This document shows positions 5,830-56,705 of a stretch of DNA of 64,000 nt, in pieces. The DNA lies in NCBI GenBank assembly GCA_005116835.1, contig SWDM01000016.1:376351-440350 (forward strand), given 5' to 3'. Position 1 is the first letter of the stretch, and each line of letters opens with the position of its first letter. The position numbers and the translations under genes were made by a program. A model generated the notes under the pieces. The model searched no databases, had not been told where the DNA came from, and saw only the letters and a list, made by a program, of their open reading frames with translations. This DNA comes from Nitrospira sp. GTDB lineage: Bacteria > Nitrospirota > Nitrospiria > Nitrospirales > Nitrospiraceae.

Positions 5830-6447
5830 ATGCACAAACCTGTAATTGTCTGTTTAGATCTGGAAGGGGTGTTGGTGCCGGAGATCTGGATCAACGTGGC
5901 GCTCAAGACCGGCATCGACGAACTGAAAATTACCACCAGGGAGATGCCTGATTACGATGCCTTGATGAAACGGCGGCTGGCCATTCTAGATCAGCATAAA
6001 CTCACCATTCACGATATCCAGGGCGTTATCGAGAAGATGGGGCCGCTTGAAGGAGCCATGGATTTTGTCGCCTGGATCCGCGAGCGATGCCAAGTGATTA
6101 TCTTATCCGATACCTTCTATCAGTTCGCCCAACCGCTGATGCGCCAGCTGGGATTCCCGACACTCTTTTGCAATCAGTTGGAAATCGATCAAGCCGGCCG
6201 TATTGTCAATTTCCACATGCGGATGCCGAACCAGAAAAAACACTCGGTGGCGGCGTTCAAGTCCCTCAACTTTCACGTCCTGGCCGCCGGCGATGCTTAC
6301 AACGACACTGCCATGTTAGGAGAGGCCCACGCGGGATTCTTCTTCTGTCCGCCGGAACATCTTCCAAAGGAGTTCCCGCAATTTCCAGTAACGAAGACGT
6401 ACGGGGAGCTACAGGCGCGGTTTGCGGAGGCAGGGAATCTCAGGTAG
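5830..6447 (+). CDS. thrH: ThrH, phosphoserine phosphatase / phosphoserine:homoserine phosphotransferase
   Basis: A 205-aa haloacid dehalogenase-type enzyme that matches ThrH of Pseudomonas nearly end to end. HAD motif I is CLDLEGVLVPEIW (nucleophile Asp10, with Glu12 where other HAD phosphatases have Asp, a ThrH trait); motif II is LSDTFY near residue 95; motif IV is AAGDAYNDTAML near 155; QPLMRQLGFPTLFC is also characteristic. ThrH dephosphorylates phosphoserine and can pass the phosphate to homoserine, giving O-phosphohomoserine. That matters here because the threonine operon at 51-56 kb has no canonical ThrB. ATG 5830 follows a purine-rich leader (GAGAAAGTGAGAAAATA). Confidence 0.93.
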   Translation: MHKPVIVCLDLEGVLVPEIWINVALKTGIDELKITTREMPDYDALMKRRLAILDQHKLTIHDIQGVIEKMGPLEGAMDFVAWIRERCQVIILSDTFYQFAQPLMRQLGFPTLFCNQLEIDQAGRIVNFHMRMPNQKKHSVAAFKSLNFHVLAAGDAYNDTAMLGEAHAGFFFCPPEHLPKEFPQFPVTKTYGELQARFAEAGNLR

Positions 6448-48780: not shown

Positions 48781-50433
48781 TCATTCATCCTTGGCCAACA
48801 ACTTGTATTCGATACTATCTGCCAATGCTTGCCAACTTGCTTCCATGATGTTCTCAGACACGCCGACAGTACCCCATTTATCCTTATGGTCTCCCGACTC
48901 GATCAATACCCGGACTTTGGACTCAGTCCCACGATTGGCCGATAACACTCGCACTTTGTAGTCGAGCAGTTTGACTTCCCGGAGTTGCGGATAGAACTTC
49001 TCCAATGCCTTTCGCAAGGCATGGTCGAGTGCATTGACCGGACCCTCACCAATCGCCGCCGCATGTTCCACCACTTCACCGACCTTCACCATCACTGTCG
49101 CCTCAGACGATGAGGCGCCATGGTCGCGTTTTTTCTCAACAATGACCCGAAAACCCAAGAGTTGAAATGCCGGCTTATGCGTCCCCATCGCCTTTCGCAT
49201 GAGCAACTCAAAGGAGCCCTCCGCTGCCTCAAACTGGTAACCCTCGCTTTCACGTTCCTTCAGAGTATCGATCAATTCCTGCAACTTGGCATGGCCCTTG
49301 TCCAATTTGATTCCATAGGCCTCGATCTTTTCCAGCAACCCACTCCGTCCGGCCGCGTCCGATACCAGCACCCGTTGGCGGTTGCCAACCAGCCCCGGGT
49401 TCACATGTTCATAGGTCGCGGGGTTTTTGAGCACCGCGTGGATATGCACTCCGCCCTTATGCGCGAAGGCTGAATCTCCCACATAGGGCTGGTGCTTATT
49501 GGGCATGAGGTTCGCGATCTCGCTCACGAATCCCGAAACCTGCTTGAGATGACTCAACCGGTCTCGCAACGCAGGACGCTTCATCTTCAGCTCAAGATTG
49601 GGAATAATCGAACAGAGATTGGCATTGCCGCACCGTTCGCCGATCCCGTTAATCGTCCCTTGCACTTGCACCACACCGGTTTCAATAGCCACCAGCGAAT
49701 TCGCGACGGCCATTTCGCAATCGTTATGGGCATGAATCCCCAAAGGCACCGCGCACTCCCGCCGGACGACCTGGCAGATCTCTTTGATTTCCCAGGGCAT
49801 CGATCCGCCGTTCGTGTCGCAGAGGATCACCCGTTCGGCTCCGGCCAATACAGCTTGCCGAATGGTCTCCAGCGCGTAGTCCGGATTCGTCTTATATCCG
49901 TCAAAGAAATGCTCCGCGTCATAGAACACCCTCCTGCCCTTCGAGCGGAGATGGGCTACGGAATCGCTGATGAGTTCGAGATTCTTGACCAGGGAAATTC
50001 CGAGCGCATCGGTCACGTGCAGCGACCAAGTCTTTCCGAAGAGCGTAATGATCGTGGTTTCCGCCTCTAGCAACGCCAGGATATTCGGATCCTTCTGTAC
50101 CGTATTGCTCGATTTTCTCGTGGCCCCGAACGCCACCACCGTCGCGGTCTGTAACGGAACGGTCTTGATCATTCGGAAGAACTCGATGTCTTTGGGGTTC
50201 GCCCCCGGCCAGCCGCCTTCAATGAATTGGACCCCCAACCCATCCAGCTGTTGGGCGACCCGAACCTTGTCTTCTGCCGAGAAACTGACATCCTCGGCCT
50301 GAGCCCCATCCCGTAACGTCGTGTCGTAAATTTCCAGCGCTGCCTGTTTGGCGGCAGGCGCATGCGCGCCGGACGACGCAGAGCCGGCTGGCTTGCCTCG
50401 CGAAGATCGTGGTGGTAAAGATTTTCGAGTCAT
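48781..50433 (-). CDS. cimA: (R)-citramalate synthase
   Basis: A 550-aa two-domain enzyme of the HMG-CoA-lyase-like TIM barrel type: YDTTLRDGAQAEDVSFS near residue 37, FYDAEHFFDGYK near 170, IHAHNDCEMAVANS near 230 and GERCGNANLCSI. The C-terminal LeuA-type regulatory domain is present. Within the isopropylmalate synthase relatives, the DGAQAED form marks the TIGR00977-type citramalate synthases, which condense pyruvate and acetyl-CoA for the threonine-independent route to isoleucine. The N-terminal 30 residues are a low-complexity leader. ATG 50433 lacks a clear Shine-Dalgarno. It ends the aspartate-family operon. Confidence 0.92.
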   Translation of the reverse strand: MTRKSLPPRSSRGKPAGSASSGAHAPAAKQAALEIYDTTLRDGAQAEDVSFSAEDKVRVAQQLDGLGVQFIEGGWPGANPKDIEFFRMIKTVPLQTATVVAFGATRKSSNTVQKDPNILALLEAETTIITLFGKTWSLHVTDALGISLVKNLELISDSVAHLRSKGRRVFYDAEHFFDGYKTNPDYALETIRQAVLAGAERVILCDTNGGSMPWEIKEICQVVRRECAVPLGIHAHNDCEMAVANSLVAIETGVVQVQGTINGIGERCGNANLCSIIPNLELKMKRPALRDRLSHLKQVSGFVSEIANLMPNKHQPYVGDSAFAHKGGVHIHAVLKNPATYEHVNPGLVGNRQRVLVSDAAGRSGLLEKIEAYGIKLDKGHAKLQELIDTLKERESEGYQFEAAEGSFELLMRKAMGTHKPAFQLLGFRVIVEKKRDHGASSSEATVMVKVGEVVEHAAAIGEGPVNALDHALRKALEKFYPQLREVKLLDYKVRVLSANRGTESKVRVLIESGDHKDKWGTVGVSENIMEASWQALADSIEYKLLAKDE

Positions 50434-50491
50434 AGGGGGAACGATATCAGGAGCGGGACGAACCTGTCGAGACTCACCTCGCCGAAATCCT

Positions 50492-51733
50492 CTACTTCGA
50501 GTTTCGCTCCCCCGCCGGGGACTGGTCCAACCCGAACGCGGTATGGAGCGAACGCATCGCGAGTTCGGCGTACTTCTCGTCGATGACACAGGAAATCTTG
50601 ATCTCCGACGTGCTGATCATGAGGATGTTCACCCCTTCCTGCGAGAGGACTTCGAACATCTTGGCTGCGACTCCCGAATGGGAACGCATCCCGACGCCGA
50701 CCAGCGACACCTTCGCGATCGCCTCGGTGACCGCGACCGATTTGGCATCGATCCCTTTCGCCACTTCTTGAATCAGCGGCAGGGCTTTCTTGATATCTGC
50801 CCGTGGAATCGTGAAGGAAATATCCGTCATGCCGGACTGGCTCATGTTCTGGATGATCATATCCACATTGATGTTGGCCTTGGCTACAGGCCCGAAGAGC
50901 TTGGAGGCGATACCTGGCTTGTCCGGCACACCCACAATCGTAATCTTGGCCTGGTTTCGATCGCCGGTCACTCCGGACACTGCGACCGCTTCCATATCTT
51001 CATCTTCACGCGTCACGAGCGTCCCCTTTCCTTCTTTGAAGCTGGAGTTCACCTCTACCGGCACATTGAACTTCGCAGCGAACTCAACGGAGCGGCTCTG
51101 CAGCACCTTGGCCCCCAGGCTGGCCATTTCCAGCATTTCTTCATAGGCAATCTTGTCGATTCGCCGGGCCGCCGGCACGATATTCGGGTCCGAGGTGTAG
51201 ACCCCGTCGACATCGGTAAAAATGATGCACCGGTCTGCTTTCAATGCCGCCGCTAATGCAACGGCTGTGAGATCGGATCCCCCCCGCCCCAACGTCGTGA
51301 CATCCGATTGCTCGTTGATTCCCTGAAAACCCGCAACCACGGGAATCACCCCGTTGAGCAGAACCTCACGGATTCGATCGGCGCTCACCCGAGTAATACG
51401 CGCCTTCGTATGGGCGCTGTCGGTCATGATCCCGACTTGACGTCCCGTAAAGGATTGGGCATCCAGTCCGCGAGCCCGCAGGGCCATCGCCAGCAAGGCA
51501 ATGGTCACACGCTCTCCGGTCGACAGTAACATGTCGAGTTCTCGATCGTCCGGCAGCGAGGCGACTTCGTGGGCCAACCGCATCAACCGATCCGTCTCTC
51601 CACTCATCGCGGATAACACAACCACGATGCGATTGCCGTCTTTATGAGCCTTCTCGACGCGATCCGCCACGCGGTGGATCCGCTCGATCGTGCCCACCGA
51701 TGTCCCCCCGTATTTCTGAACGATCAGCGCCAC
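50492..51733 (-). CDS. lysC: Aspartate kinase
   Basis: A 413-aa monofunctional aspartokinase: [13 protein letters not shown] at the N-terminus, [30 protein letters not shown] near residue 148, [15 protein letters not shown] near 175, and two C-terminal ACT domains ([14 protein letters not shown] and [16 protein letters not shown]) for lysine or threonine feedback. It catalyses the first step of the aspartate family pathway. It starts 5 bp from the AP-superfamily gene and 58 bp before cimA. No lysine riboswitch is seen upstream. Confidence 0.97.
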
Positions 51734-51738
51734 GTCCC

Positions 51739-52980
51739 TTAGGATCCTTTTGCGAACAGCCGCACAACGAACTTGGTCGCATCACGAGGAGGCACGGCCG
51801 AGGCTTGAGCATCGGCCTCGGTAAACCTTCGCCCCGGCTCGGCAGAGGCGGCTCCCGTACTATCACGATAGGCGAAGAACCCGGAACTTTCCGCTGCTTG
51901 GTCATGATGCGCATTGCCCGAGTCGCAGACAGCTACGATACGATGGGGGCCCAATTTGGCCAGACCTTCAAGCAACGGCCCCACCAGCTCACGATCGACC
52001 GCTTCGATGCCCTTCACCTTGGCTGCGACATCCGATCCATAGACGACCTCATCCGGCAGCTCCACATGCACGTAACCAAAATCATGTTTCTTCAGTTCCT
52101 CCAAGGCGACCGCCGCCTGAGTCCGGAGATCAGCGCCGGCCAATCTCGCGCCGTCCACTGCTTCAAGCCCTGCCATGATGCCGAGGCCGCGATGGACATC
52201 ATTCGGTGAAACCACCACACCGGACACCTTCAACCGCTCCGAGAGGCTTGGCCAGAGAATGGCCTTGCCTTGGCCCCAGAGCCAGAGACAATTGGCCGGC
52301 TTCTGCCCCGCCTCCCGGCGTTCATCGTTGAGGGGATGATCCCGCAAAATCTGAAACGACGCATCCATCAGCTTCCAGAGAATGTCGGATCCGTCTCCCG
52401 TCGGCAATCCCTCGGTGATCTGGCGCCCGACCAATAGTTGCGGATCGGTGCAGACCGCCCGCGATTTTCCGTCGACCCACACCATGAGATGACGGTGACC
52501 TAGTCCTGGGTAGAACTGAATCATCTCGAATCCGAGCTGCTCATTGATGGCCTCGATCAATTCACGGGCCTCTTCCGTTGAAATCAGGCCTGCGGTCGCA
52601 TCGTCCATCACTACATGCGGTCCAAGCTTCTTGATCTCGTTCAAGCCACCTTTGCTCCCATACTGAGCGTCCGCCCCTAACGCGACCATCGTACAGCGAT
52701 AGACGACGTCGTGCTCGCCGATGGCGACTCCCAAGCTGGCAGCCTCGAGCGGGCCTGGGCCATGGTAGTATTTCTTAGGGTCATAGCCAAGAATCGCGGT
52801 TCCCATCAGACCGTTCCCCTGTCGCGCCACGTCACGCATCGTGGCCAACAGCCCGAGCTCCCCGCCTTGCGCAAGGCGATCCAGGTGAGGGATCGAAGCT
52901 GCCTGGAGGGGAGTCCGTCCGCCCAATTCCTTCCGCGGATGGTCTGCCATCCCGTCGGCATGGAGAATCACATGTTTCAT
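51739..52980 (-). CDS. AP-superfamily enzyme, ApgM / proposed homoserine kinase family, with altered active-site motifs
   Basis: A 413-aa protein similar throughout to archaeal-type cofactor-independent phosphoglycerate mutases and to the group TIGR02535, named proposed homoserine kinase because its genes cluster with threonine genes. Conserved landmarks: HADGMADHP near residue 8, [31 protein letters not shown] near 64-84. However, the catalytic motif I expect to read G-S-D-V-A-N near residue 56 is instead QGNGLMG, and the C-terminal ADH-TP metal motif is replaced by CDSGNAHHD near 352. These differences could destroy the phospho-Ser chemistry or mark a new reaction. Its position between thrC and lysC supports a threonine-pathway role. 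Function not proven. Confidence 0.75.
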
Positions 52981-53002: not shown

Positions 53003-54061
53003 CTACATCCTTAACAGACGAGCGACATCCTCCCGCGTCGCTCTAACGGTTTTCGGTTGGGCCGAAACGCTGATGGCGGTATCGGCATCTTTCAATCCAT
53101 GGCCGGTCAAGGTACAGACCACGACCTCGCCTTCGCGCAATAGGCCTTGCTTGTTCAACTTCATGACGCCGGCCACCGAGGCGGCAGACGCAGGCTCACA
53201 GAATACCCCTTCCGTCACCGCCACTGTCCTATAGGCTTGGAGAATTTCTTCGTCGGTCACCGAATCGATCGCGCCAGAAGACTCTTTCACGGCGCTCAAG
53301 GCTGTTTCCCAGCTTGCAGGATTACCGATTCGGATCGCCGTGGCCACCGTCTGTGGGTTCTCCACAATGCGGCCAAGCACAATGGGCGCGGCGCCGGCTG
53401 CCTGAAATCCGATCATGCGAGGCAACCGCGTGGATTGATTGGCCGCGCGATATTCCCGATATCCCTTCCAATAGGCGGTAATGTTGCCGGCATTCCCCAC
53501 CGGCAATACATGAACCGTCGGGGCATCGCCGAGCTGATCGCAGACTTCCATCGCGGCGGTTTTCTGCCCCTCGATCCGATAGGGATTGATCGAGTTGACC
53601 AGCTCGATGTGGTAGGTCGCGGATAATTCTTTCACGATGGTCAAGGCCTGATCGAAGTTTCCTTCGATCTGGATGACTGTGGCCTGGTGCATCATGGCCT
53701 GGGACAGTTTCCCCATCGCAATTTTCCCGGCAGGAATCAGCACATAGACCGCCAGTCCCGCCCGCGCGCCATAGGCGGCAGCGGAAGCGGACGTATTCCC
53801 CGTAGAGGCACAGATCACCGCCTTGGCGCCGGACTCAACGGCCTTCGAGATGGCCATCGTCATACCGCGATCCTTGAAGGATCCAGTCGGATTCATGCCT
53901 TCGAATTTGAGATGGAGATCGATGCCGGGGGCGATCTGTTTCGCCAGTCGCGTCGCCCTGATGAGCGGAGTGTTGCCTTCCCCGATCGTCACCACCGGGG
54001 TGCGGTCGGTCACGGGGAGAAACTTCCGATACTCTTCGATCACACCATGCCAGCGATTCAT
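53003..54061 (-). CDS. thrC: Threonine synthase
   Basis: A 352-aa PLP enzyme of fold type [21 protein letters not shown] near residue 52 carries the Schiff-base Lys63, [17 protein letters not shown] near 85 binds phosphate, and the C-terminal [15 protein letters not shown] is typical. It converts O-phosphohomoserine to threonine and so requires a phosphorylated homoserine source. It is 4 bp from hom and 22 bp from the AP-superfamily gene, consistent with one transcript. Confidence 0.96.
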
Positions 54062-54065
54062 CGCA

Positions 54066-55379
54066 TTACTCGTCCTTGCCCTCGACTCGAATCAAAGTGG
54101 TCGGCTCGGAAATGAAGGCCATGCGATTGATGGCTCGCAATGCCGCCTGAACATCGCGTTCCTTCGCGGTGTGGGTCTTGATCACGACCGGCACCGTCTG
54201 CCCTTCGCGCCGCCCCTGCTGAAGCACGGAAGAGATGCTGATTCCGCATCGGCCCAGCTCTCCTGCGATTTGCGACAAGACGCCGGGACGGTCCAGCACC
54301 ATGAACCGGAGGTAGTAGAGCGAGCTGATCTCTTCCATCGTCCGCATTCGAAGCGGCCGACGCTGGTCCTGCTGGAACGACGCAGGCGGCACTCGCCCGA
54401 CCGCCCCTTTCAGCAGATTGCGCGCGATGGCAATCAGATCGCCCACCACTGCGCTGCCGGTCGGCATGGATCCCGCGCCACGGCCATAGAGCACCACATC
54501 GCCCACGGCATCGCCGACTAATTGAATCGCATTGTAGACTCCGTCGACTTGGGCGAGGGGAGACGAAGACGGCAGCATGGTGGGATGCACTCGAGCTTCG
54601 ACTTCATTTCCGACCAACTTGGCGATGCCCAACAGCTTGATCGTGCAACCGAACTCTTTTGCGTAGGCGATATCGAGCGGCGTAATGTGGGTAATCCCCT
54701 CGGTATACAGATCCTTCACATTGACCGCGGTTCCATAGGCCAGCGCCGCCAGAATCGCCAGTTTGTGCGCTGAATCGATACCGGCCACATCGAATGTCGG
54801 GTCCGCTTCGGCATAACCGGCCTGTTTCGCTTCGTCGAGCACCGCTTCGAAATTCTGGCCCTCACGGGTCATGCGCGAGAGGATATAATTGGCCGTCCCG
54901 TTGATGATCCCATAAATGGAATGGATAGTATTGGCTGCGAGCCCTTCCCTCAAGGCCTGGATGACGGGAATCCCTCCGCCCACACTCGCTTCAAATCCCA
55001 GATCCACCCCAGCGCGAGACGCAGCGGAAAATATTTCTTCTCCGTGTAACGCGAGCAGGGCCTTATTGGCGGTGACGACATGTTTGCCCGCCGCTATCGC
55101 TTCCAGGATAATGCGTTTGGCGATATCGCAGCCTCCGATCAGCTCGACGACGATATCGACCGACGGGTCGGCGAGAATCTGCTTTGCATCGGTCGTGAGG
55201 AGGCCGGGCGGTAATGCCAGACCCCGGTCGCGGGTGACATCGAGATCCGCAATCCGAACGATCTCGATCGGCACACCGACCCGGCGGCTGATCAAGGAGG
55301 CACTCTCCAAGAGAACCCTTGCGACGCCGGTTCCAACCGTTCCAAACCCAACGATGCCGACGCCCACGCGCGAAATCAT
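54066..55379 (-). CDS. hom: Homoserine dehydrogenase
   Basis: A 437-aa NAD(P)-dependent enzyme: Rossmann motif [13 protein letters not shown] near residue 10, [28 protein letters not shown] near 106, and a [14 protein letters not shown] motif near 168. A C-terminal ACT domain ([16 protein letters not shown]) gives threonine feedback. It reduces aspartate semialdehyde to homoserine. Its ATG overlaps the alaC stop by 4 bp. Confidence 0.96.
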
Positions 55380-56572
55380 GTTTCCGGCCCTTCAAGCTTA
55401 AGGGCTTTGCGGATGCCTCGAACCGCTTGCCTGGTGCGATGTTCGTTTTCGACGAGACCGAAACGCACATACTCGTCCCCGCCTTCACCAAACCCAATGC
55501 CGGGAGACACGGCGACTTTTGCGTCACGGAGCAGGAGCTTCGAAAACTCCAACGATCCCATCGACCGATACGGCAAGGGGATTCTGGCCCAGACGAACAT
55601 GGTGGCGACAGGCTTATTGACCTGCCATCCGATACGATTCAGTCCGCTCACGAGTACATCCCGACGTTTCTGATAGCGCAGCACTGTCTCTTTGACGCAA
55701 TCTTGCGGCCCATTGAGGGCGATGACGCTGGCAATCTGCAATGGTTGGAAAATACCGTAATCCAGATAGCTCTTGATCTTCGCCAGGGCTCCGACGACCT
55801 CGCGATTCCCGCAACAAAATCCCACGCGCCAACCTGGCATGTTGTAGGCCTTGGAGAGGGTATAGAATTCGACGCCGACATCCTTGGCTCCGGGGACTTG
55901 CAGAAAGCTCGGCGCCTTATATCCGTCGAACACCAAATCGGCATAGGCCAGATCGTGAATGACAATGACGTTATGTTCTTTGGCAAATGCGACGATCTTC
56001 GTGAAAAATCCGAGATCCGCCACCGCGGTAGTCGGATTATGCGGAAAATTGATGACGAGGATCTTCGGCCGCGGGAAGGTCTGGCGATAGACTCTCTGTA
56101 GATCGTCGAAGAAGTCACTGTCGGGACGCAGCTCGATCCCCCTGACTTCTCCCCCGGCGATAATGAAACTGTACATGTGAATGGGATAGGTCGGCGTCGG
56201 CGTCAGCACGACGTCACCGGGGCCGATCAACGCCAGCGCCAAATGCGCTAACCCCTCTTTGGAACCAATCGTGACGATGGTCTCGGTCTCAGGGTCTAGA
56301 TCGACATCGTAATTCCGCTTGTACCATCCAGTGATCGCCTGCCGCAGTTTCGTAATCCCGCGCGAGGCTGAGTAACGATGATTTTTCGCCTTTCGCGCCG
56401 CCTCGATCATCTTCTCGACGATATGGCTCGGCGTCGGCTGGTCAGGATTTCCCATTCCGAAATCGATAATGTCTTCGCCCTGCTGACGAGCCTCCAGCTT
56501 GAGACTCTGCACCTGGGCAAACACATAAGGCGGTAGCCGTTTGATACGATAAAATCCGTCGCCTAATCCCAC
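55376..56572 (-). CDS. alaC: Class I/II aminotransferase, AlaC-like (alanine transaminase)
   Basis: A 398-aa PLP aminotransferase of the AlaC/LL-DAP-aminotransferase-related group: [12 protein letters not shown] near residue 10, [20 protein letters not shown] near 167, and a PLP-Lys in [15 protein letters not shown] near 225. AlaC enzymes make alanine from pyruvate with glutamate; some relatives act in methionine or lysine synthesis. The GTG at 56572 is preferred because GGGGAT lies 4-9 nt upstream; a TTG 6 codons earlier lacks this. First gene of the operon alaC-hom-thrC-AP protein-lysC-cimA. Confidence 0.9.
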
Positions 56573-56705
56573 AAGATCCCCTGTCCGCAATCTTTACGCG
56601 CGCGGAAACATCGCATGATCGCCCTCCGCCTCGTTAGGGGGCCTATTCTAATGGCGCAGAGCGTATCTAGTCAAATTATGTCGTGATTCTGTGGGGTTCG
56701 GTATT

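Follow-up and report, generated by a model that had tools for sequence, protein, structure and literature searches.

The AP-superfamily protein encoded in the threonine operon of Nitrospira is probably a retained pseudoenzyme (or a radically remodelled protein), whose ancestral role has probably passed to the unrelated enzyme ThrH. In the window (the whole 64,000-nucleotide stretch of a Nitrospira sp. contig that was analyzed), its gene has an ATG start, no internal stops, and a product of 413 aa, and it lies within an operon ordered aminotransferase–hom–thrC–AP–lysC–citramalate synthase:

55376..56590, minus strand: aminotransferase (alanine transaminase / LL-DAP aminotransferase-like)
54066..55379, minus strand: hom, homoserine dehydrogenase
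53003..54061, minus strand: thrC, threonine synthase (TIGR00260, by profile match), immediately upstream of the AP gene
51739..52980, minus strand: degenerate AP-superfamily protein (apgM / TIGR02535 / "ThrB2" relative), by family matches and ligand alignment
50492..51733, minus strand: lysC, aspartate kinase, immediately downstream of the AP gene
48781..50484, minus strand: citramalate synthase (TIGR00977, 763 bits against a cut-off of 450); the mechanical call extends to 50589, and the start at 50484 is putative

Superfamily membership is clear from PF10143 (141 bits) and PF01676, both over cut-off. Scores to the related families fall short of their cut-offs: 309.2 bits to TIGR02535 (curated cut-off, 446.3), 323 bits to PRK04200 (cut-off, 426), and 313 bits to TIGR00306 (cut-off, 320). 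A sequence-only reading of this DNA had placed the protein in the proposed homoserine kinase group and in a threonine operon, and these matches, sub-cut-off as they are, together with the thrC and lysC neighbors, bear it out. Three features are expected of a TIGR02535 member: a location in a threonine biosynthesis operon, a conserved Ser nucleophile with two-metal ligands, and a genome without another homoserine-phosphorylating enzyme. The window gene has the first (hom–thrC–AP–lysC), retains three of seven residues of the second, and shares its genome with ThrH. Among solved structures, the best matches are to archaeal-type cofactor-independent phosphoglycerate mutases (ApgM; PDB 2zkt, 3kd8, and 3idd; phmmer E, 2e-28 to 4e-28). 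An AlphaFold2 model recovers the metalloenzyme core fold, with a Foldseek match to 3kd8 (E, 1.4e-15), although its mean pLDDT is 62, its insert domain is poorly modelled, and it rests on an alignment of just 33 close sequences, too shallow for any claim about metal-site geometry.

The clearest departure from these relatives is in the catalytic residues. In all 30 canonical Nitrospirota homologues, the residues D-S-D-H-D-H-H are invariant at seven positions (D9, S56, D300, H304, D343, H344, and H353 in L002 numbering), which, by homology and from established iPGM knowledge, we take to be the nucleophile and two-metal ligands of cofactor-independent mutases. The window protein has D9, N56, D310, Y314, D353, S354, and A362 at these positions: the three Asp ligands are retained, and the Ser nucleophile (now Asn) and all three His ligands are gone. 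The affected sites are as follows:

52954..52956, minus strand: D9, a metal-ligand position still present (by alignment)
52801..52821, minus strand: residues 54 to 60, QGNGLMG, once the nucleophile loop (PGSDVAN in canonical copies; Ser replaced by Asn, and Asp and Asn each by Gly)
52030..52053, minus strand: residues 310 to 317, DEVVYGSD, the former DxxxH(GD) ligand motif (Asp retained, His to Tyr)
51895..51927, minus strand: residues 352 to 362, the former DH..H ligand loop (Asp retained, both ligand His gone)

In the last of these, C352-D-S-G-N-A-H-H-D360 stands where the canonical PDHPTP...RTHT would be. The motif loss that the sequence-only reading had noticed in QGNGLMG and CDSGNAHHD is thus confirmed by alignment to the 30 canonical homologues. 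Displacement of the ligands to shifted positions was considered and rejected on alignment of the metal site, there being no conserved His in residues 355 to 373 across the family. As to what the loss means, the suggestion of a lost enzymatic function is well supported and holds lineage-wide; that of another phosphate donor and metal set fares poorly, given that no new conserved His cluster was found.

We extended the comparison to the Nitrospira family (62 sampled genomes, 101 aligned sequences) and to other Nitrospirales of the same order (15 genomes). None of the 101 family sequences keeps all seven ligands (one is kept in 1 sequence, two in 3, three in 25, four in 42, and five in 30); as such, the ligand loss is real and not a sequencing quirk, and its recurrence across 101 homologues rejects a sequencing error or a single-genome pseudogene. 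The final ligand His is missing from every family sequence, the Asp after the nucleophile has become Gly in 93, and the nucleophile position itself is occupied by Ser (64 sequences), Gly (26), Asn (8), Arg (2), or Ile (1). The D9 position is variable too (Asp in 39, Gly in 47, Glu in 8, Ala in 6, and Ser in 1), and H314 and H354 persist in about half of the sequences. Residues D310, D317, and D353 are nearly invariant (97, 98, and 92 of 101, respectively). No compensating His is apparent at position 358, which is His in only 27 of the 101 sequences and a gap in 54, and the former ligand loops have gained a single near-invariant reactive residue, C352, where canonical copies have Pro. Elsewhere in the alignment, 52 columns are kept in both the canonical group and the Nitrospira family, and the latter has 45 newly fixed ones (including R75P, S161G, Y162H, P179D, and K264R).

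Each of the 62 sampled family genomes has exactly one low-scoring copy, which, in the loci read, sits after thrC and before lysC wherever the contig extends. Among the family matches listed, TIGR02535 scores are 272 to 342 bits, versus mostly 520 to 580 bits in canonical copies, and no genome of the Nitrospira family or the other Nitrospirales exceeds the cut-off. The genome analyzed here contains no second, intact AP paralogue at E values up to 1. Degenerate copies occur, for example, in Nitrospira moscoviensis (L091) and in isolates that bear the labels N. defluvii and N. lenta. In the tree, sequences from the Nitrospira family and the other Nitrospirales form a single clade (support, 100/100) on a long stem of 0.73 changes per column.

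These patterns bear on whether the protein might be a remodelled enzyme, performing phosphoryl (or other) transfer through a reduced acidic metal site (D310/D317/D353) with a different nucleophile or by direct transfer. The conservation of that acidic set is the reason for entertaining an altered activity, and the 45 newly fixed positions and purifying selection are consistent with it; moreover, with the Asp trio near-invariant, H314 and H354 kept in about half of the sequences, and Ser56 in 64 of 101, some members may still have part of a metal site, a counterpoint to the pseudoenzyme reading. We nonetheless regard a remodelled enzyme as unlikely: the nucleophile position varies among five residues, D9 is gone from 62 of 101 sequences, the ligand loops hold no conserved replacement His and only C352 as a new near-invariant reactive residue, and the ligands lost differ between species, unlike what would be expected of a redesigned site.

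The candidate for the replaced activity is encoded in the window itself, about 44 kb from the AP gene, and had gone unnoticed in the sequence-only reading:

5833..6447, plus strand: thrH, bifunctional phosphoserine phosphatase / homoserine phosphotransferase, 204 aa from ATG, by profile and PDB match (the mechanical open reading frame begins at GTG 5761)

The window ThrH matches that of Pseudomonas aeruginosa (PDB 1rku/1rkv) with an E value of 3.4e-82, scores about 302 bits to TIGR02137 (cut-off, 223.4), and is also far above the cut-off of PRK13582. ThrH adopts an unrelated HAD fold and shares no homology with the AP protein that it is proposed to have replaced in function. In P. aeruginosa, ThrH passes phosphate from phosphoserine to homoserine (PMC1079889), and by analogy the window ThrH would carry out the same transfer. 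TIGR02137 is exceeded in 75 of 77 Nitrospirales genomes (60 of 62 in the Nitrospira family and 15 of 15 in the others) and in 0 of 168 other Nitrospirota; the two remaining family genomes have partial hits, one starting at contig base 6 (G159) and the other a 108-base fragment that is probably cut (G163). Within the Nitrospirales genomes tested, no SerB exceeds its cut-off, and ThrH is the best SerB hit in most; for this reason, ThrH may be the phosphoserine phosphatase here and could serve both serine and threonine synthesis. Should it act mainly as a phosphoserine phosphatase, as it might, this would count against its takeover of the homoserine step. In four Nitrospirota outside this order whose AP gene is canonical (G014, G047, G107, and G032), no SerB and no ThrH exceeds its cut-off.

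Across 245 Nitrospirota genomes, the AP family exceeds its cut-off in 117, ThrB in 36, and ThrH in 75, with AP and ThrB both over cut-off in two genomes (G007 and G119) and AP and ThrH in none (overlaps were counted by hand from listings, and the counts are not phylogenetically independent). G007 has 6% contamination. No Nitrospirales genome has a GHMP ThrB over cut-off, the best match in the Nitrospira family being 54.5 bits (cut-off, 168.25), and these weak matches are probably IspE-like; no thrB_alt exceeded its cut-off in 40 genomes. Every one of the 11 genomes from the other families of the class has ThrB, and wherever the thrC–lysC junction is readable in them, the AP gene is absent from the operon, save in three genomes. 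One of these, G119 (L032), keeps all seven ligands despite its ThrB, the sole intact exception in the ThrB-bearing families; in G181 (L033, NSDPDHP) and G131 (L060), the gene is degenerate. The copy in G131, which probably degenerated independently, is extremely diverged (end branch, 2.57 changes per column) and still lies between thrC and lysC. Among the other Nitrospirales, 10 of 15 genomes have no AP gene, and in all 10 thrC is directly followed by lysC; another, G204 (L061), has a pseudogene remnant between thrC and lysC that is interrupted by three TGA and one TAG codons. In nearly all genomes with ThrH or ThrB, then, the AP gene is missing, degenerate, or pseudogenized, although this does not amount to many independent cases because the presence of ThrH is a single phylogenetic event.

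The retained gene is under purifying selection. A codon model over 19 close taxa yields an omega of 0.134 for the AP gene, versus 0.051 for thrC, 0.053 for hom, 0.048 for lysC, and 0.030 for the aminotransferase, and pairwise estimates are concordant (0.128 versus 0.037 to 0.070 for the neighbors). Local dN within the gene is highest in the nucleophile loop (0.27) and the DH..H loop (0.23) and lowest in the insert domain (0.09); the rapid evolution of the former ligand loops therefore points to a lapse of catalytic constraint, with the rest of the protein still maintained. An omega 2.5 to 4 times that of the neighbors, and the absence of the gene from 10 and its pseudogenization in 1 of the 15 other Nitrospirales genomes, could also mean that a redundant gene is slowly decaying and just not yet lost from Nitrospira. 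We consider this improbable, since omega (0.13) is far below 1, the gene is kept in 62 of 62 family genomes, and 52 columns are nearly invariant; polarity within the operon might keep the frame open but would not account for the conservation of specific residues.

A retained pseudoenzyme would fit the following history. The ancestral protein would have been an AP-superfamily enzyme catalyzing the presumed homoserine-phosphorylating step of the threonine operon, as presumed in most Nitrospirota. The presence of the unrelated ThrH in the ancestor of the Nitrospirales would have made this reaction redundant, after which selection on the nucleophile and two-metal site would have lapsed. Some lineages now lack the gene (hom–thrC–lysC), one carries it as a pseudogene, and the Nitrospira family has retained it, its fold conserved and a set of residues newly fixed. 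We infer that the ancestral reaction is gone from the Nitrospira family and is performed by ThrH, whose presence in the same genome (window positions 5833 to 6447) is the likely reason that the loss of AP catalysis was tolerated. Our best guess is that the present role is non-catalytic and that the protein most likely binds a pathway metabolite or a neighboring operon enzyme (ThrC or LysC); such a binding or regulatory role is favored because conservation extends to the fold and insert domain but not to the chemistry. More specifically, and only tentatively, the protein could be devoted to regulating the threonine/lysine branch without catalysis, still binding a metabolite of the pathway and controlling either ThrC or the aspartate kinase encoded beside it.

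Among known systems, genome context was the basis for proposing that TIGR02535/ThrB2 is an alternative homoserine kinase (PMC9026213). Its Bacteroides member BT2402 is needed for threonine prototrophy, with mutants rescued by threonine, yet it failed to complement E. coli thrB (PMC7311316); its zinc ligands are conserved (PMC9765024). The Nitrospira protein shares descent, length, fold, and threonine-operon position with this group; however, BT2402 keeps its zinc sites, whereas the Nitrospira lineage scores below cut-off and is without the His ligands and often the nucleophile. A shikimate-kinase-like homoserine kinase has also been described in Desulfovibrio (PMC5764234). A role in homoserine phosphorylation is unproven even for canonical TIGR02535 members, and here the Nitrospirota provide a natural experiment: canonical copies have intact catalytic residues in genomes where no alternative enzyme of this kind exceeds its cut-off, and in genomes that carry ThrH or ThrB these residues have mostly disappeared or there is no AP gene. 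This pattern lends indirect support to a homoserine role for intact TIGR02535 members. It also marks the Nitrospira branch as different, with a probable pseudoenzyme that has stayed in its operon throughout a family of nitrifiers of global importance. Our literature search found no paper discussing this protein in Nitrospira, and we caution that Nitrospira copies should be labelled neither phosphoglycerate mutase nor homoserine kinase. That the protein is the cell's phosphoglycerate mutase, as its family name and the failure to find GpmI in the genome might suggest, is highly implausible because its nucleophile and metal site are lost and the genome instead carries two GpmA-like histidine-phosphatase genes (L160 and L161, on contigs C6 and C17), the scanned one scoring 269 bits to TIGR01258 against a cut-off of 81.7.
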